Origin: Quadrisphaera sp. INWT6 | Lineage (GTDB): Bacteria; Actinomycetota; Actinomycetes; Actinomycetales; Quadrisphaeraceae | Reading direction: 5' to 3' | Assembly (NCBI RefSeq): GCF_015390235.1 | Contig: NZ_VUOH01000002.1 | Coordinates: forward strand, 124,001 to 188,000 | Length of the DNA stretch: 64,000 nt | Shown: positions 7,528-17,053 of the stretch, one piece after another | Layout: every line of letters begins with the position of its first letter | Numbering within the stretch: position 1 is the stretch's first letter | Translations under genes and position numbers: made by a program | Notes under the pieces: generated by a model | The model's database searches: none | What the model was told of the DNA's origin: nothing | What the model saw: only the letters and a program-made list of their open reading frames with translations

Positions 7528-9093
7528 TCAGGTGGGGTCCTCGGACTCCAGCGGGGCCACCGGCAGCCGCACGAGGAACGCGGTCTGCCCCGGCCGCGTG
7601 GTGACGTCGACGGTGCCTCCGGTGGAGGCCACGATCGCCGACACGATGGCGAGCCCCAGGCCGCTGCTGCCCGCTGAGCGGGAGCGGGACCCGTCACCGC
7701 GGGCGAACCTGTCGAAGACGTGGGGCAGCAGCTCCGCGGGGATGCCGGGGCCGTCGTCGAGCACGGAGAGGACCACGAGGCCCGGCGTCGTCGTCGCCAG
7801 CCCCGCCGTGACGGTCGTGCCCGGCGGGGTGTGGGTGCGCGCGTTGGTGAGCAGGTTGACCACCACCTGGTGCAGCCGGGCGGCGTCGCCGACCACCTCG
7901 ACCGGCTCCTCGGGCAGGTCCAGGCGCCACACGTGGTCGCGGCCGACCGCCGAGGCGTCGCTGACGGCGTCGAGCAGCAGGCGCGTCAGGTCGACCAGCT
8001 CGGTCTCCAGGGGGCGGCCGGCGTCGAGGCGGGCCAGCAGCAGCAGGTCCTCGACCAGCCCCGTCATGCGCTTCGCCTCGGACTCGACCCGTCCCAGCGC
8101 GTGCGCGGCGTTCGGGGGGAGCGCCGCCGGGTCGCGGTTGACCAGCTCGGCGTACCCGCGGATGGACGCGAGCGGGGTGCGCAGCTCGTGGCTGGCGTCG
8201 GCGACGAACTGGCGGACCCGCTGCTCGCTCTCGTGGCGCGCCGCGAGCGCTGAGCCGACGTGGGTGAGCAGGCTGTCGAGCGCCGCGCCGACCTGGCCCA
8301 CCTCGGTGCGGGGGTCGGTGTCGCGCGGTGGGACGCGCACGGCGAGGGAGACCTCACCCCGGTCGAGCGGCATCGCGCTGACCTGCGCCGCGGTGGCGGC
8401 GACCCTGCGCAGGGGGCGCAGCGAGCGGCGGACGACGACGGCAGCGGCCAGACCCGCCAGCAGCACGGCGAGCACGGCGACGACGAGCTCCACGGCCACC
8501 AGGCGGCGCTGCGTGGCCTCCAGCCCGGACAGCGGCACGCCCGTGACCAGCACGTCGTCTCCGCTGGTGACGCCGACGACCCGGTACGTGCCGAGCGAGC
8601 CGACGTCGACGGTGCGGGGCGTCCCGCCGGCGGTGACCTCCGCGAGCGCCGAAGCGTCGGCGCTGCTGGCGGTGACGGCGCAGAACCCCTCCAGCGAGGC
8701 GGCGGCGGTGACCCGGCCGTCGGCCACCCGGGCGGCCAGCGTCCCGGGGGCCTGGCCGGGGGCCAGGAGGAAGCCGATGCCGGCGGCCTGCGCCTCCTCG
8801 TCGGCCGTGGACGAGGTGCAGCGGTCCTGTCCTCGGAACGCGGGCTGCGAGGGCTCCTCGGACTGGGCGGAGGTGCCCCCGGCGCGGAACCGCTCACCGG
8901 CGAACGGGGCGCGCTCGGCGGAGCTGACCAGCTGCGCGTCGAGCTGGGCCAGCTGCAGCTGCCGCAGGGCGACGACGGTCGCCGTCCCCACCGCGGCGCA
9001 CACGACGGCGACCAGCGCCACGAGCGCGACCACGAGCTTGGTGCGCAGCGACCACGCGCGCACGCGGACCAGCCTCGTCAGGGCGCCGGTCAC
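7528..9093 (-). CDS. Sensor histidine kinase
   Basis: A 521-residue membrane kinase. Helices at about 18-42 and 198-221 bracket an outer sensor domain with two Cys residues (RCTSS and GFCAV). A HAMP segment follows, then the HisKA box FVADASHELRTPLASIRGY with the phospho-acceptor at His302. The ATP-binding part has LLTNARTHTPPG (N box), DDGPGIP and GSSGLGLAIV (G box). The GTG start at 9093 overlaps the response regulator stop by four bases, so the pair is co-translated. Targets are unknown. The glycosyltransferase genes downstream on the same strand and the divergent Gln/Gly-rich anchored protein suggest an envelope signal. Confidence 0.95.
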   Translation of the reverse strand: MTGALTRLVRVRAWSLRTKLVVALVALVAVVCAAVGTATVVALRQLQLAQLDAQLVSSAERAPFAGERFRAGGTSAQSEEPSQPAFRGQDRCTSSTADEEAQAAGIGFLLAPGQAPGTLAARVADGRVTAAASLEGFCAVTASSADASALAEVTAGGTPRTVDVGSLGTYRVVGVTSGDDVLVTGVPLSGLEATQRRLVAVELVVAVLAVLLAGLAAAVVVRRSLRPLRRVAATAAQVSAMPLDRGEVSLAVRVPPRDTDPRTEVGQVGAALDSLLTHVGSALAARHESEQRVRQFVADASHELRTPLASIRGYAELVNRDPAALPPNAAHALGRVESEAKRMTGLVEDLLLLARLDAGRPLETELVDLTRLLLDAVSDASAVGRDHVWRLDLPEEPVEVVGDAARLHQVVVNLLTNARTHTPPGTTVTAGLATTTPGLVVLSVLDDGPGIPAELLPHVFDRFARGDGSRSRSAGSSGLGLAIVSAIVASTGGTVDVTTRPGQTAFLVRLPVAPLESEDPT

Positions 9094-9812
9094 GGGGCGG
9101 GCTTGAGCACGTACCCGACGCCGCGCACGGTGTGGATCATCGGCTCGCGCCCGGCGTCGACCTTCTTGCGCAGGTAGGAGATGTACAGCTCCACCACGTT
9201 GGCCTGGCCGCCGAAGTCGTACTTCCAGACCCGGTCGAGGATGTGCGCCTTGCTGAGCACCTTGCGGGGGTTGCGCATCAGCAGCCGCAGCAGCTCGAAC
9301 TCGGTCTGGGTGAGCACCACCTCGTCGTCGCCGCGGAAGACCTCGTGGCTCTCCTCGTCCATGGTCAGGTCGCCCACGGCGAGGCGCGGGTCGGCCCGCG
9401 GGGCGAGGGCCCCGGAGCGGCGGACCATGCCGCGCAGCCGGGCGATGACCTCCTCCAGGCTGAACGGCTTGGTGACGTAGTCGTCGCCGCCGGCCCGGAT
9501 GCCGGCGATGCGGTCCTCGACGGAGTCGCGGGCGGTGAGGAACAGCACCGGGACGTCGGGGACCTCCTCGCGGAGCCGGCCGAGCAGGGTCAGCCCGTCG
9601 ACGTCGGGGAGCATGACGTCGAGGACGACGACGTCGGGGCGCAGCTCGTGCGCCGCCCGCACCGCGGCGGCGCCGTCACCGGCGGAGCGCACCTGCCACC
9701 CCTCGAAGCGCAGCGCCATCGACAGCAGGTCGGCCAGCTGGGGCTCGTCGTCGACGACGAGCGCCCGCACCGGGCTGCCGTCGGTGCGCAGCAGCGCCTC
9801 GCTCGTGCTCAT
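9090..9812 (-). CDS. OmpR/PhoB-family response regulator
   Basis: A 240-residue regulator. The receiver domain has the acidic pair VVDDEP near residue 21, the phospho-acceptor Asp65 in VVVLDVMLPDVDG, and the Lys in DDYVTKPF. The C-terminal winged helix is of OmpR type (TQTEFELLRLLMRNPRKVLSKAHILDRVW and VELYISYLRKKVD). ATG at 9812 begins the compact receiver; longer readings add unrelated sequence. It is paired with the kinase that follows by a 4-base overlap. The 143-base gap to the plus-strand gene at 9956 is a likely shared regulatory region. Confidence 0.95.
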   Translation of the reverse strand: MSTSEALLRTDGSPVRALVVDDEPQLADLLSMALRFEGWQVRSAGDGAAAVRAAHELRPDVVVLDVMLPDVDGLTLLGRLREEVPDVPVLFLTARDSVEDRIAGIRAGGDDYVTKPFSLEEVIARLRGMVRRSGALAPRADPRLAVGDLTMDEESHEVFRGDDEVVLTQTEFELLRLLMRNPRKVLSKAHILDRVWKYDFGGQANVVELYISYLRKKVDAGREPMIHTVRGVGYVLKPAP

Positions 9813-9955
9813 GCGCTCAGTGTCGTCCGGCGGTGGCCGTCCTGTCTGGGCGTCTGCTGTGGTCCGGCTATGAGGTCCGTCCCGGGTGGGGGCGTCATAG
9901 GAGGCGCACAGGCGCCCTGCAGCGCCGGGGCAGCGCACGCACCGAACGTCCTGGC

Positions 9956-10387
9956 ATGACCACCACAGACACCCTCCCCACGCAGGACCCCGTGCGCGAC
10001 GCCGCCCCGGGGGTCGGACGCCGCGTGACGGCCCTCGTCGCCGCGGGCGCGCTCGCCGTCGGGCTCCTCGGCGGCGTGGGCATCGGCCGGGTGACGGCTC
10101 CCGCGGCGGCGTCCGCCGGTGTGGGTGCCAGCGGCTCCGGGCAGGGCGGCCCCGGGGCGATGGGCGGTGGCGGCGGGGCGGGGTTCCCCGGCCAGATGGG
10201 CGCTCCCGGCGGGTCGACGTCGCAGGGGGGCACGAGCCAGCAGGGCCAGCTCGGCCAGCAGGGCCAGCTCGGGCAGCAGGGCCAGCTCAGCCAGCAGGGC
10301 CAGCAGGGCACGGCTCCGGGAACCACCGGCGGGACCACCGGCGGGACGACCGGCGGGACCACCGGCGGGACCACCAGCAGCACCTGA
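9956..10387 (+). CDS. Single-span protein with Gln/Gly and Gly-Thr repeats
   Basis: One hundred forty-three residues. One membrane helix lies at about 24-46 (VTALVAAGALAVGLLGGVGI). After it comes a Gly/Pro/Gln-rich tail: a GGGGGAGFPGQMG stretch, then a GQLGQQ-type hexad run, then five GGTT repeats up to the stop. There is no lipobox or sortase signal. Composition suggests a flexible anchored envelope protein. A similar FPGAQQGTQQGT stretch occurs in the outer loop of the nearby GT39 enzyme. ATG at 9956 starts immediately before the acidic N-terminus. It is divergent from the two-component operon and may be its target. Confidence 0.75.
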   Translation: MTTTDTLPTQDPVRDAAPGVGRRVTALVAAGALAVGLLGGVGIGRVTAPAAASAGVGASGSGQGGPGAMGGGGGAGFPGQMGAPGGSTSQGGTSQQGQLGQQGQLGQQGQLSQQGQQGTAPGTTGGTTGGTTGGTTGGTTSST

Positions 10388-12458: not shown

Positions 12459-12641
12459 CTACCCGGCGTCCACGGGGGTGGGAGACGGACGGCCCTCGCG
12501 CGGGTCGACGACGCTCGCGCGGCCGCCGCGGTCGGCGTCGTCGGGGGCGACGACCTCCGGCGCCTGGGCCGGCGCGAACCGGGCCAGCGGCGGGTGCAGC
12601 GGAGACCAGCGGTGGAGGGCTGAGGGCCGGGCGCTCGACAT
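12459..12641 (-). CDS. Small hypothetical protein at the end of the redox operon
   Basis: Sixty residues beginning MSSARPSALHRW and ending in an acidic, Pro-rich tail. Over 90% of its codons end in G or C, a much cleaner pattern than in the other frames here. It begins 43 bases after the ferredoxin stop on the same strand, so it can be the last cistron of that operon. An AGGAGG sequence lies too far upstream (about 24 bases) to be its ribosome site. No cysteine, helix or known motif is present. Confidence 0.5.
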   Translation of the reverse strand: MSSARPSALHRWSPLHPPLARFAPAQAPEVVAPDDADRGGRASVVDPREGRPSPTPVDAG

Positions 12642-12684
12642 GGCGGGACAGTAGGAGCGTGATCACCTCCTGGCGAGGGACGCC

Positions 12685-12906
12685 TCACGGGGCCGGGCGC
12701 AGCGAGAGCGCCATCCGCGGGCACTCCCCCACGGCCAGGTGCGCCGCCCGCTGCAGCCGCCGCGGGACGGCGGGGGCCACCTCGCCGGTGGTGGAGACCG
12801 GGTAGCCCCAGTCGTCCTCGGCGAGCAGCTCGCCCAGCAGCTCGGTGCACAGGCCCCGGCCGTCGCAGCGCGTCCAGTCGACGTGCAGCCTCTCCACCGC
12901 GCTCAC
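12685..12906 (-). CDS. Small 3Fe-4S-type ferredoxin
   Basis: Seventy-three residues with Cys in the order RCDGRGLC (Cys-5-Cys) and, near the C-terminus, GECPRMAL (Cys-Pro). This three-Cys pattern is that of the single-cluster 3Fe-4S ferredoxins of actinobacteria, which pass electrons between a flavoprotein and an oxidoreductase. The GTG start at 12906 overlaps the stop of the NuoF-like gene by four bases, so the two are translated together. It is probably the soluble electron carrier of this module. Confidence 0.85.
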   Translation of the reverse strand: MSAVERLHVDWTRCDGRGLCTELLGELLAEDDWGYPVSTTGEVAPAVPRRLQRAAHLAVGECPRMALSLRPAP

Positions 12907-14264
12907 CGCTCCTCCCGGGCCAGGCAGCGCCCGCCCAGGTGGGCCTGGACGTCGTCGGCGAAGGTCATCAGGGTGCTGCGCACCAGGCGCACCGACCCAC
13001 TGGGGTGGTGGCAGGCGCCGCGCCCGTCGACCAGCCCCGCCACGCGGTGCAGCTCGTGCACGCGGCGGGCCAGCCCCTCGCGGCTGTGCTGCCGCGACGG
13101 CACCGCGGCGCCGGCGTCGGCCAGCGCCTCCAGGTGCTCGGCCAGGGTGGGCAGGCCGTTGACGCAGGGGCCGCACTGGCCGGCGGTCTGGGCCGCCAGG
13201 TAGCGGGCGACGTCGGCCCCCGCCCGCAGCCCGCAGGCGCGCGAGGGCAGGGCGATGACGACGCCCGCACCGGGGTCGGCACCCCACGGCGCGAGCGCGC
13301 TGCCGGAGTGGGGCAGCGAGGCCGTGTGCGGCGCGCGCTCCCCGAAGGGGACCCAGCCGCCGTGGTAGCCGCCGACCAGCAGCGCCGACAGCTGCTCGCT
13401 CGCTCCGCCGGCCGCCGAGAGGACGTCCGCGAGGGGTGCTCCCCCGGCGACCTCGGCCACCCGCGGTGTGCGGACGGCGCCGCTCACGGTCACCAGGCGA
13501 GTGCCCGGCTCGTCATCGGTGCCGACCGACCGGAACCACGAGGCGCCGAGGCGCGCGAGCAGCCCGAGGTGCGCGAGGGTCTCGACGTTCATCACGAGCG
13601 TCGGACGGCCGGGGCGCTGTGCGGTCCCCGCGCCCACCAGCCGCGGCGGGGGCCAGGGCGTGCGCGGCAGCGCCGGCCCGCCGGCCACGGCCGACGCGAC
13701 CGCCGACGACTGCCCCGCCACGAACCGGTCGGGAGCCGCCGTGCTGCGCACCGCGACCTCGTCGACACCGGCGGCGGCGCGCTCGACGAGCAGCGGCGCG
13801 AGGGTGCGCACCACCTCCGCGGGGGCGTAGAGGTGCGCCTCGGCTCCTCCGGCCGAGCTGCCGACGGCCCCGGTGACCGCGCGGACCGCGAGGGCCAGGC
13901 CGTCGAGCACGAGGTGGGGCGCGTGGGCGAGCAGGGCGTGGTCCTTGCTGCTGGCCGGCTCGCCCTCGGCGCCGTTGGCCACGACGACGGGCGGGCGCCC
14001 CGAGCGCACCGCCTCCCCGAGGGAGGCGAGCTTGCGGCCGGTGGGGAACGCGGCGCCGCCGCGGCCGGTGAGGCCGGCCTCCGCGGCGAGCTCGGCGACG
14101 CGCACCCCGGGCAGGCGAGCGGCGTCCGGGAGGGGCCCGACCAGCGCGAGGTGCGACGCGAGGTCGGGAGCGGCGCACGCCATGAGGCGGCGGCGGCTCG
14201 TGGTGGTCGCCAGGAGCGCCGGGGGCGGGCCGGCTGGCGCGGAGGGGAACGACAGGGCGGTCAC
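12903..14264 (-). CDS. NuoF-like flavoprotein / iron-sulfur subunit
   Basis: A 453-residue protein resembling the FMN- and NADH-binding subunit of complex I. Residues 64-79 (GLTGRGGAAFPTGRKL) form the FMN loop, NGAEGEPASSKDH matches the nucleotide region, and VMNVETLAHL matches the end of the flavin domain. An SLBB-like domain follows (VTVSGAVRTPRV). The cluster motif near the C-terminus is AGQCGPC, with Cys364, Cys367 and a distal Cys418. The first Cys of the usual SCGxCxxC motif is Ala361, so the cluster would be incomplete or differently ligated. Both ends overlap neighbours by GTGA. It likely moves electrons between NAD(P)H or ferredoxin and the membrane haem protein. Confidence 0.88.
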   Translation of the reverse strand: MTALSFPSAPAGPPPALLATTTSRRRLMACAAPDLASHLALVGPLPDAARLPGVRVAELAAEAGLTGRGGAAFPTGRKLASLGEAVRSGRPPVVVANGAEGEPASSKDHALLAHAPHLVLDGLALAVRAVTGAVGSSAGGAEAHLYAPAEVVRTLAPLLVERAAAGVDEVAVRSTAAPDRFVAGQSSAVASAVAGGPALPRTPWPPPRLVGAGTAQRPGRPTLVMNVETLAHLGLLARLGASWFRSVGTDDEPGTRLVTVSGAVRTPRVAEVAGGAPLADVLSAAGGASEQLSALLVGGYHGGWVPFGERAPHTASLPHSGSALAPWGADPGAGVVIALPSRACGLRAGADVARYLAAQTAGQCGPCVNGLPTLAEHLEALADAGAAVPSRQHSREGLARRVHELHRVAGLVDGRGACHHPSGSVRLVRSTLMTFADDVQAHLGGRCLAREER

Positions 14265-14914
14265 CGCCGGGCCCCCGCTCCGACGGGCTCGCGCCGCAGT
14301 CCGGCGAGGTGGGCCGGGACGTCGCGCCGGTCGCCCGTCGCGGCGGCGTCGAGCGGGGCCGCCGCTCGGCGCGGCGCGGGCACCCGGCGGGGCAGGAGGC
14401 GCAGCACGAGGGCGCCGCCCACCGCGGCGGTGCAGGCGACCACGACCGCCGTCATCCACCACGTGCCGGCGTCGGTGCCCGTGCCCAGGGTGTGGAGCAC
14501 GGCGCTCGGCCAGCACAGGTAGGCCGCCCAGTGCACCGCCCGCCAGGCGCGCAGCCCCAAGCGGTGGCGCAGCAGGCTGGTCACCACCAGCGCCGCGACG
14601 AGGTCCAGGGCGAGGGTGCCCAGGCCCAGCCAGAACGGGTTCCACGCGCCCAGGAACGGCACGACGACGTCGACCAGCTCCAGCTGGGCGTACGGGTCGA
14701 CGAGCATCGTCGCGACGTGCACCACGAGGAAGACCAGCGCCGACAGGCTGAGCCAGCGGTGCACCGCCGCGACGGCGGCGCGCGACAGCCCGGGCGCGCT
14801 CTCACCGCGGCGCACCAGGACCCCGGCGACCACGACGGCCGTGAACAGGACCAGCGCCGCGACACCGGTGCCGCGGCCGAGGTACCAGAGGGCGTCGACC
14901 AGGGCGTCGCTCAC
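14261..14914 (-). CDS. Ferric-reductase-like haem b membrane protein
   Basis: Two hundred seventeen residues with about six membrane helices and a basic tail. Two helices carry spaced histidine pairs, His52/His66 (VHRWLSLSALVFLVVHV) and His128/His141 (RAVHWAAYLCWPSAVLHT). This is the pattern that holds haem b in the ferric reductase/MsrQ-like superfamily. It opens with WYLGRGTGVAALVL, common to that group. It lacks the flavin and NADPH domains of full ferric reductases, and the NuoF-like partner next to it may fill that role. The GTG start at 14914 overlaps the ApbE stop by four bases. Confidence 0.88.
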   Translation of the reverse strand: MSDALVDALWYLGRGTGVAALVLFTAVVVAGVLVRRGESAPGLSRAAVAAVHRWLSLSALVFLVVHVATMLVDPYAQLELVDVVVPFLGAWNPFWLGLGTLALDLVAALVVTSLLRHRLGLRAWRAVHWAAYLCWPSAVLHTLGTGTDAGTWWMTAVVVACTAAVGGALVLRLLPRRVPAPRRAAAPLDAAATGDRRDVPAHLAGLRREPVGAGARR

Positions 14915-15978
14915 CGCTGCTCCTCCGTCACCGGCTCGGCGGGCCAGGGGCCGACCAGCACCACGTCGCCGTCGTCACCGACCAGGCGGGCGGTGGCGTG
15001 CTGCTCGGCCAGCCACGCGGGAGCGGCGGCGCCCAGCACCAGGGCCGCGGTGCTCAGGGCGTTCGCCTCGGCGCAGCTGGGGGCGACCACCGACGCGGTC
15101 CGCCACACCGGCTCCGCGGGGAGCCCGGTGGCCGGGTCCAGCACGTGGTGCGCCGGGCCGGCCGGGGTCGCCCAGCGGCGGTGCAGGGTCGACGACGTCG
15201 CCACGCCACGCACCCCGCCGACGGCGAGGAGGCTGGCGGGCTCGCCGTCGCCGTCCTGCACCCGGACCTGCCAGCCCCCGGACGGCTCGCGGCCGGCCGT
15301 GGCGACGTCGCCGCCGATGGACACCAGCGCGCCGCCGCCGAAGCGCTCGACCACGGCGTGGGCGCACAGGTCGGCCGCGCGGGCCTTGGCGGTGGCGCCG
15401 AGGTCGAGCAGCACCCCGGCGGGCAGCCACAGCAGCGCGCTCCCGTCGGGGTCGGCGCCGGGCAGGACGACGACGCCCCGCCACGCCGCCGACGGGCGCG
15501 GGAGCGCCGCGGGGTCGGTGCCGGCCGTGGCGCGCACGAGCCGGAACGGCGCCGCCGGACCCGCCGCGGGTGCGGCGGTGCGGGCGCGGACGACGTCGAG
15601 GTCGTCGTCGTACCCGAGGGCCTCCAGGTGGTGGCCGAGCGTGGGGTCGACGGCTCCCGAGGTGCGCTCGGCGGCGTCGAGCGCGACCTCGACGAGGTCG
15701 GCGAGCAGCGCGCTGACGCGCACGGGCGCGCCGGCGAGCGACGCAGCCGCGGCGCGGACCACCTCGGAGCCGGGGCGGAAGCGGCTGGCGGCAGCGTCCA
15801 CGGCGGCCAGCCGCTCCTCCACCAGCGCTCGCGCGGCGGGCAGGACGGCGGGGTCGGTGACCACGAGGCGCGCCGTCGTCGTCCACACGGACCACTCGGC
15901 CGCGGCGGTGTCCGGGCGGGTGGCGCGGCGGGTGGTGGCCCGAGGCCGGTGGCGGCGGTGCAGGACGGTGGTGCTCAT
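14911..15978 (-). CDS. apbE: FAD:protein FMN transferase (ApbE family)
   Basis: A 355-residue ApbE protein. This family moves FMN from FAD onto a Thr or Ser of an exported target. Family features include VDAAASRFRPGSEV, LDLGATAKARAADL, SIGGDVATAG, HHVLDPATG and CAEANALSTAALVLG. At position 306 an Asn stands where enterobacterial members have Asp in the ADxLxT metal site. As far as I recall this is frequent in actinobacterial members. No signal peptide is clear; the N-terminus is basic. It overlaps the exported protein before it and the haem protein after it by four bases each, which ties it to this electron-transfer operon. Confidence 0.9.
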   Translation of the reverse strand: MSTTVLHRRHRPRATTRRATRPDTAAAEWSVWTTTARLVVTDPAVLPAARALVEERLAAVDAAASRFRPGSEVVRAAAASLAGAPVRVSALLADLVEVALDAAERTSGAVDPTLGHHLEALGYDDDLDVVRARTAAPAAGPAAPFRLVRATAGTDPAALPRPSAAWRGVVVLPGADPDGSALLWLPAGVLLDLGATAKARAADLCAHAVVERFGGGALVSIGGDVATAGREPSGGWQVRVQDGDGEPASLLAVGGVRGVATSSTLHRRWATPAGPAHHVLDPATGLPAEPVWRTASVVAPSCAEANALSTAALVLGAAAPAWLAEQHATARLVGDDGDVVLVGPWPAEPVTEEQR

Positions 15979-16232
15979 GACCCGCTCGACCCGGCGTGGG
16001 AGGAGCCCGCGCTGCCGCTGGTGACCCACCCCTGGTCGGAGCTCGTCGAGCCGCCGCCGGTGGTCGAGGAGGTGGAGGTCGTCGTCCCGGTGGCGTCCGT
16101 CGTCGTGGAGGCCTCCGCCGCCGCGACCCCGGCGACGGTGACGGCGCCGACCAGGGCCGCGCTCGTGGCGACCGCCACCACGAGGCCGGCCCGCCTCCTG
16201 CTCTTCTCGCGCTCGCCCACCACGACGACCAC
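15975..16232 (-). CDS. Small exported Ser/Thr/Gly-rich protein
   Basis: About 85 residues. A basic N-terminus and one hydrophobic helix (GLVVAVATSAALVGAVTVAGV) form a signal peptide or anchor. The tail consists almost only of Ser, Thr, Gly, Ala and a few Asp. It is the first cistron of the redox operon and overlaps apbE by ATGA. Its place is where an FMN-carrying target of ApbE is normally encoded, yet it has no FMN-binding domain. The nearest thing is TDATGTTTS at residues 45-53, which is not the usual D-x-x-S/T-G-A-T. GTG codons at 16223 and 16220 are alternative starts. Confidence 0.65.
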   Translation of the reverse strand: MVVVVGEREKSRRRAGLVVAVATSAALVGAVTVAGVAAAEASTTTDATGTTTSTSSTTGGGSTSSDQGWVTSGSAGSSHAGSSGS

Positions 16233-16462: not shown

Positions 16463-17053
16463 ATGAGCCTCACGACGAGCAGCGCCACCTGCACCCCCAC
16501 CACCTCCGCGACCTGGGCGAGCGGCGCGTCGGCGACCGCCCGCTCCGAGCGGGTGCCGGGCCACGTCAGGACCGCCGCCGACGCTCTCGGCCTGAGCACC
16601 GACGAGGTCATGAGCGCGCTGAAGGGCGGTGAGAGCCTGCTCGACGTGGCCGACGCCCAGGGCGTCTCCCGCGACGACCTGCTCTCGGCGCTGAAGGCCG
16701 GCGCTCCCCAGGAGCTGCAGGACAGCGCCGACGCCGACGCCCTGGTGGAGGCGCTGGCGTCCGCCACGGGCGTCGGCGGGCCGGGCGGCGCCGGTGGGCC
16801 GGGCGGCGCCGGCGGCCACCACGGACCGCCCCCGGCGGGCGCGACGACGGGAGTGCTCAGCGGCTCCCTGACCAGCGCGCAGCAGACGACCCTCGGCGCC
16901 CTGAGCGACCTGCTCGGCACCGACGCCGACACCCTGCTCGGCCAGCTGCGGTCCGGTACGGACCTGACCGACCTGCTCTCGCAGAAGGGCGTGACGCTCG
17001 ACCAGCTCACCACGGAGCTCGAGGAGGGCCTCGTGGTCGACACCCGGGTGTGA
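16463..17053 (+). CDS. Hypothetical protein with two DUF2680-like helical repeats
   Basis: A 196-residue protein without signal peptide. Two related helical units, near residues 35-80 and 135-190, share the pattern L-G-x-[ST]-x-D-x-[LV]-x-x-x-L-[KR]-x-G-x-x-L-x-D-[VL] (DEVMSALKGGESLLDVADAQ and DTLLGQLRSGTDLTDLLSQK). A Gly/Pro/His-rich linker joins them. Such units occur in small actinobacterial proteins of unknown role. ATG at 16463 follows AGGAGA closely. It is divergent from the redox operon, with 230 bases between them that must hold both promoters. Confidence 0.7.
   Translation: MSLTTSSATCTPTTSATWASGASATARSERVPGHVRTAADALGLSTDEVMSALKGGESLLDVADAQGVSRDDLLSALKAGAPQELQDSADADALVEALASATGVGGPGGAGGPGGAGGHHGPPPAGATTGVLSGSLTSAQQTTLGALSDLLGTDADTLLGQLRSGTDLTDLLSQKGVTLDQLTTELEEGLVVDTRV

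Follow-up and report, generated by a model that had tools for sequence, protein, structure and literature searches.

Which protein receives the flavin when an operon encodes an ApbE-type flavin mononucleotide (FMN) transferase and none of the usual targets of that enzyme? The question is raised by a locus of Quadrisphaera sp. INWT6 (contig NZ_VUOH01000002.1, positions 124,001 to 188,000; this whole stretch of 64,000 nucleotides is called the window, and all coordinates refer to it). Five genes on the minus strand, joined by four 4-base overlaps, encode a small exported protein (gene 1), an ApbE (gene 2), a ferric-reductase-like haem b protein (gene 3), a NuoF-like flavoprotein (gene 4) and a three-cysteine ferredoxin (gene 5). 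A preliminary description of the DNA had already listed these genes and overlaps, with His52/66 and His128/141 as paired haem ligands, and all of them were recovered here, the four redox proteins being backed by Pfam matches and conserved ligands. Its span of 12459-16232 holds for the genes, except that the left end lies 226 bases past the ferredoxin stop; no supported gene was found from 12459 up to that stop. A scan for promoters and terminators found none. The path that had been proposed, from NAD(P)H to a flavinylated outer acceptor, is plausible, and the genes form one conserved redox operon, but the acceptor was left unnamed, and FMN_bind proteins are missing from both the operon and the genome (91% complete).

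FMN_bind proteins are the usual targets of ApbE. Because the genome has none, and encodes a single ApbE, the enzyme is left without its usual target; NqrB/RnfD and DUF2271 targets were also sought in the genome and none was found, DUF3570, Flavodoxin_4 and FMN_red not being part of that search. A three-query search of the class, covering 394 genomes, listed ApbE next to a NuoF-like gene in at least 54 of them. Among those 54 listed genomes 22 lack FMN_bind, and 13 of the 22 have one ApbE only. The evidence, read from the sequences, points to gene 1 as the flavinylated outer acceptor, through a motif at its C-terminus.

The recognition motif of ApbE is D-x-x-[S/T]-G-A-[S/T], with FMN attached to the last residue; seven residues are enough, and protein termini are the best positions (PMC12052999). 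Among the published substitutions, Asp to Ala has a minor effect and Gly to Ala roughly halves labelling. The corresponding tail proteins of relatives were collected as open reading frames (ORFs) chosen by position, helix and linker composition, with the last seven residues ignored in choosing, which gave 98 non-redundant tails. An ending [S/T]-x-[G/A]-S is present in 93 of these, compared to 3.5 expected from each protein's own linker, and simulated chance endings reached a maximum of 15 matches in 200,000 runs; low-complexity chance is thus ruled out as the cause. By position, Ser is found at -1 in 94/98, Gly or Ala at -2 in 94/98 and Ser or Thr at -4 in 96/98 tails. A second, independent genome set, fetched after the pattern had been seen in the first, showed the ending in 30 of 33 cases. 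The exact D-x-x-[S/T]-G-A-S forms the final seven residues of 23 of the 98 tails, and the distant ApbE branches and other lineages display endings such as STGASGAKP, HATSGASGG, TTGASGA, DTSTGASG, DATTGAS and DSNTGAS. The window tail, HAGSSGS, keeps the Ser at -1, the Gly at -2 and the Ser at -4. No such tail was found at 15 control loci selected for secreted-type FMN_bind/ApbE pairs, where both genes had been placed by the class-genome searches and a pattern-based ApbE scan found no ApbE.

Gene 1 itself matches no Pfam family above cut-off, FMN_bind (PF04205) included. Almost every relative has a protein of this architecture encoded directly before ApbE, with an Arg-rich start followed by a single helix, a linker rich in Ser, Thr and Gly, and the fixed ending. 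The linker of the relatives varies from 30 to 164 residues (median 64), and the C-terminus is the sole conserved outer feature of these proteins. The charge bias predicts an N-in, C-out orientation in 102 of 105 relatives. Two arginines stand ahead of the helix in 81/105, and an AxA-like site, as in exported proteins, is found at the end of the helix in 55/105. Two more specific export routes were considered for the family and rejected: the strict twin-arginine translocation (Tat) motif occurs in 0/105, and a lipobox is unsupported, with a Cys near the end of the helix in 4/105 only. A single ApbE/haem b pair at the related locus L150 is flanked by two ORFs for small exported proteins (minus strand, near 1134 and 3183), which end in AAHSTGS and MGRSSGS and are possibly a double acceptor.

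The assignment of gene 2 to the ApbE family is firm (148.9 bits against the profile PF02424, cut-off 25.6), solved ApbE structures match the family profile with an E-value of 7e-40, and the structure model is well folded, with a predicted local distance difference test (pLDDT) score of 86. The catalytic residues Ser262 and His278 are invariant in 112/112 homologues. Most ApbEs have a hydrophobic N-terminus. Such an N-terminus, or a signal peptide, was found in 0/112 homologues and, lacking an export signal, the window ApbE is not of the usual periplasmic kind. Cytosolic ApbEs do exist, a signal peptide or lipobox being typical and not universal (PMC12052999).

The remaining three genes encode further carriers of the proposed electron path. 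In the haem b protein (PF01794) His52, 66, 128 and 141 are conserved at 99-100% (n=74). A search of its sequence against the PDB gave no match and Foldseek gave its model no significant E-value. Aligned with VIA-align, the model (mean pLDDT 81.5) resembles SpNOX (8qta; Z 11.0 over 145 residues, root mean square deviation 3.3), followed by cytochrome b561 (Z 9.8), NOX5 (Z 9.7) and STEAP2 (Z 9.5). These Z scores of 9-11, together with the conserved His pairs, support the predicted identity of a two-haem membrane protein with a NOX/STEAP/MsrQ-like fold. The NuoF-like protein, which carries PF10589, scores far under the NuoF family cut-offs, yet the NADH (reduced nicotinamide adenine dinucleotide) and FMN motifs GRGGAxFP, NGxEGEPxSxKD and NVET are conserved. 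At its N3 site CGPCxxG, plus C418, takes the place of CxxCxxC. In every homologue the third Cys is replaced by Gly, while C344 and H420 hardly vary, and the iron-sulfur centre is thus altered. The ferredoxin has a C-x5-C ... CP pattern, in which C14, C20 and C62 are 100% conserved (n=75); its sole PDB match is 4id8/4ov1 (E 1e-4).

Table 1. Features of the operon in the window (positions in the 64,000-nucleotide stretch)
Feature	Position	Strand	Remarks
Gene 1, small exported protein P0001, 85 aa	15975..16232	-	GTG start, may be off by a few codons; proposed as a tether flavinylated at its C-terminus
Gene 1, predicted transmembrane/signal-anchor helix, residues ~17-39	16116..16184	-	Arg/Lys-rich N-terminus before the helix; hydropathy maximum 2.16
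Gene 1, Ser/Thr/Gly-rich linker, presumably disordered	15999..16115	-	From composition
Gene 1, last seven residues HAGSSGS	15978..15998	-	Relaxed ApbE motif; proposed FMN site is the last Ser
Gene 2, ApbE-family FAD (flavin adenine dinucleotide):protein FMN transferase, without signal peptide	14911..15978	-	Pfam ApbE 2.7e-43
Gene 3, ferric-reductase-like membrane protein with His52/66/128/141 for two b haems	14261..14914	-	Pfam Ferric_reduct 9.7e-11
Gene 4, NuoF-like NADH/FMN protein; SLBB present, N3 iron-sulfur domain altered	12903..14264	-	Complex1_51K 1.3e-21, NADH_4Fe-4S 3.5e-12
Gene 5, three-cysteine ferredoxin C14, C20, C62	12685..12906	-	Pfam Fer4_15 5.3e-10

The preliminary description had proposed a comparison of operon content across actinobacteria, and this bears out the grouping. 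Among the 80 loci closest to the NuoF-like protein (picked by similarity to its gene, and nearly all from Actinomycetota), the order ApbE-haem b-NuoF-like-ferredoxin, on the same strand and within 5 kb, is kept in 69. In the mycobacteria the set of five genes is split: the tail, haem b and NuoF-like genes lie together (L016, L018, L033, L141 and L142), and in the two mycobacterial genomes checked ApbE and the ferredoxin are found at a separate locus (L143, L144).

Taken together, we consider it likely that the operon encodes a transmembrane electron relay that ends in an FMN borne by the tip of a flexible tail. The NuoF-like flavoprotein would oxidise NADH, and from its FMN the electrons would pass via the iron-sulfur centre to the small ferredoxin and then, through the inner and the outer b haem, to an FMN that ApbE has joined to gene 1, in phosphoester linkage with its C-terminal Ser. 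The outward direction of this flow and the use of NADH are inferred. Held by its one N-terminal helix, gene 1 could let the flavin on the disordered linker swing to and fro, with the haem protein at one end and at the other an acceptor that lies farther out in the wall, for which Fe(III), a quinone-like molecule or a wall enzyme are candidates; ferric reduction would be the outcome in the first case. Because the ApbE lacks an export signal, it probably loads the tail with FMN ahead of export, in the cytosol, which can supply the FAD, and a short protein that is moved post-translationally would permit such loading before it crosses the membrane.

Several observations weigh against this scheme. 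The combination of a cytosolic ApbE and a C-out tail demands loading before export, the weakest link of the scheme. The motif is inexact in 75/98 tails; 5/98 do not match the ending, some of which are ORF mis-assignments, and in HAGSSGS of the window three residues of the canonical motif are changed (D to H, G to S and A to G). An FMN_bind gene may possibly have been missed, the genome being 91% complete. Furthermore, in an alignment to solved ApbE the Asp that serves as Mg2+ ligand (D285 in the V. cholerae ApbE, D301 in Listeria FmnB) is replaced by Asn306 in 111/112 members of the clade, which makes standard catalysis less assured. A divergent ApbE clade, the one with the most canonical TGAS tails, has Glu at this site and mostly Lys for a nearby Thr (Thr310 in the window). 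Listeria FmnB loses much or all of its activity when Mg ligands are replaced by Ala (PMC8906456). The GGN of the solved T. pallidum ApbE corresponds to an invariant GGD in the window ApbE family, and it might be guessed from the alignment that Asp and Asn have been swapped between the GGD and the Mg-ligand sites in this clade. The same replacements of Asp by Asn or Glu, and of Thr by Lys in the divergent clade, would fit an enzyme that is no protein-FMN transferase at all, being either dead or an FAD pyrophosphatase, with the operon running on free flavin; indeed, an FAD-hydrolysing ApbE relative is on record (PMC4767422). We see only a slight chance of this, since the catalytic Ser and His are conserved throughout and the clade is strictly associated with a protein that ends in the ApbE motif.

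Of the other explanations, the one that deserves most attention, although we consider it unlikely, holds that the ending is conserved for docking to the haem protein, for trimming or sorting by a wall enzyme, or for glycosylation, and that ApbE modifies another target. It would agree with the relaxed endings (SSGS, SRGS, THGS) of most lineages, in which only positions -1, -2 and -4 are strictly kept, and docking in particular would fit the mycobacteria, where the tail gene stays by the haem b gene while ApbE moves off. However, in several separate lineages the agreement with the ApbE motif covers the SGAS/TGAS core and extends even to the leading Asp, and this explanation leaves the enzyme without an FMN_bind, NqrB/RnfD or DUF2271 target in its own genome. 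Less probable still is a flavinylated gene 1 with a cytosolic tail, on which the flavin would shuttle, with the inner haem on one side and the ferredoxin or NuoF-like protein on the other; the absence of a signal peptide from every ApbE homologue and the cytosolic nature of all other soluble partners would suit it, whereas the predicted C-out orientation and the AxA-like sites argue for a tail on the outside. That the ending is merely the ribosome-binding site of the overlapping ApbE gene can hardly be credited. The G-rich codons at -3 and -2 could act as a Shine-Dalgarno sequence, and stop and start do overlap in the window, but the terminal Ser is encoded by TCG, TCA, TCC, AGC and AGT (11 cases of AGY) and the Ser/Thr at -4 by eight codons. 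Since both Ser codon families are in use, selection acts on the residue rather than on the DNA. The ending is, moreover, retained (as SRGS, SGGS or TGGS) where no ApbE adjoins, namely at the mycobacterial loci, L059 and L015 (all before haem b) and at L080 (before the NuoF-like gene), and thus it is not a ribosome site for ApbE; it is also retained where tens of bases part the tail gene from the next gene.

The proposed relay with its flavinylated tail has relatives among known systems. The precedent to which the preliminary description had pointed, ApbE joined to ferric-reductase-like proteins, exists in the 'MsrQ-like' ApbE clusters of Actinobacteria (Meheust et al. 2021, PMC8238504), in which a Ferric_reduct two-haem protein lies by ApbE, as in the operon, and a NuoF-like gene is found in 31 of 1797 clusters. 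These clusters typically have a gene with an FMN-binding domain, whereas the operon has none, its ApbE being signal-less and a short disordered tail taking that place; genes lacking both a signal peptide and a lipidation site were excluded from the survey (PMC8238504). An [S/T]GA[S/T]-type motif in a gene by an orphan apbE is known for DUF2271, DUF3570, Flavodoxin_4 and FMN_red (PMC8238504, PMC11334425). DUF2271 and DUF3570 were recognised through [S/T]GA[S/T], with experimental confirmation later (PMC8238504), and FMN_red has its flavin sites on a disordered C-terminal extension, similar to the tail of gene 1 (PMC8238504, PMC11334425). All four are folded proteins of more than 100 residues that hold the flavin, whereas gene 1 is without a folded domain and its motif is formed by the last seven residues. 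In this respect it resembles the engineered flavin-tag, a terminal 7-residue D-x-x-[S/T]-G-A-[S/T] that suffices for ApbE (PMC12052999). The flavin-tag is artificial, and gene 1 would be its counterpart in nature, the motif often being relaxed. With the NADPH oxidases and STEAP reductases (SpNOX 8qta, NOX5, STEAP2) the haem b protein shares its predicted fold, and they too transfer electrons across the membrane over two b haems; it lacks their fused flavin/NADPH domain, a role that the NuoF-like protein and the ferredoxin would fill. Gene 4, finally, has the NADH and FMN motifs, SLBB and NADH_4Fe-4S in common with NuoF, the 51-kDa subunit of complex I, and differs in having one N3 Cys replaced by Gly, with C344 and H420 instead.

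Flavin-based extracytosolic electron transfer is already known, and we rate the acceptor design as new: the open-access papers searched on flavinylation describe no ApbE substrate that is disordered and ends in the motif, subscription papers and preprints lying outside this search. More tentatively, at a little less than even confidence, we suggest that gene 1 represents a new class of ApbE substrate: its disordered, membrane-anchored tether would have a natural flavin-tag at the C-terminus, receive FMN from a cytosolic ApbE ahead of export, and act as final carrier in an NADH/three-Cys ferredoxin/two-haem relay that is widespread in Actinobacteria (Streptomyces, Nocardia, Mycobacterium, Kineosporia and others). 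If true, this would name the substrate of a large set of actinobacterial ApbEs, which earlier surveys passed over by demanding an ApbE signal peptide or FMN_bind proteins. It would also mean that an electron carrier need be no more than a flexible tail whose last residue bears a flavin, that replacement of the terminal Ser by Ala offers a single-residue test of a redox path in antibiotic producers and mycobacteria, and it would raise the question how a flavin-bearing tail crosses the membrane.

With respect to the surroundings of the operon, a conserved reductase or iron transporter was sought among 65 neighbour ORFs of the related loci as a clue to the final acceptor, and none was found; the only recurrent neighbours are two-component histidine kinases (7/65). 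In the window a histidine kinase and a response regulator (7528-9938, minus strand) lie a few kb past the 3' end of the operon. Next to them, on the plus strand, is a gene for an exported low-complexity protein (9956-10387) with repeated GQLGQQ and GGTT units, the C-terminus of which, TTSST, is not the tail motif; a similar Gly/Pro/Met-rich protein is encoded upstream of the operon at L053. On the other side, the divergent neighbour gene (16463-17053, plus strand) encodes repeated LGLSTDEVMSALKGG-type units and is kept in the same place at L001. The latter locus is recorded as Streptomyces sp. NP160, and its NuoF-like protein is 79% identical to that of the window, whereas those of true Streptomyces reach ~47%; the name of this record may be wrong.

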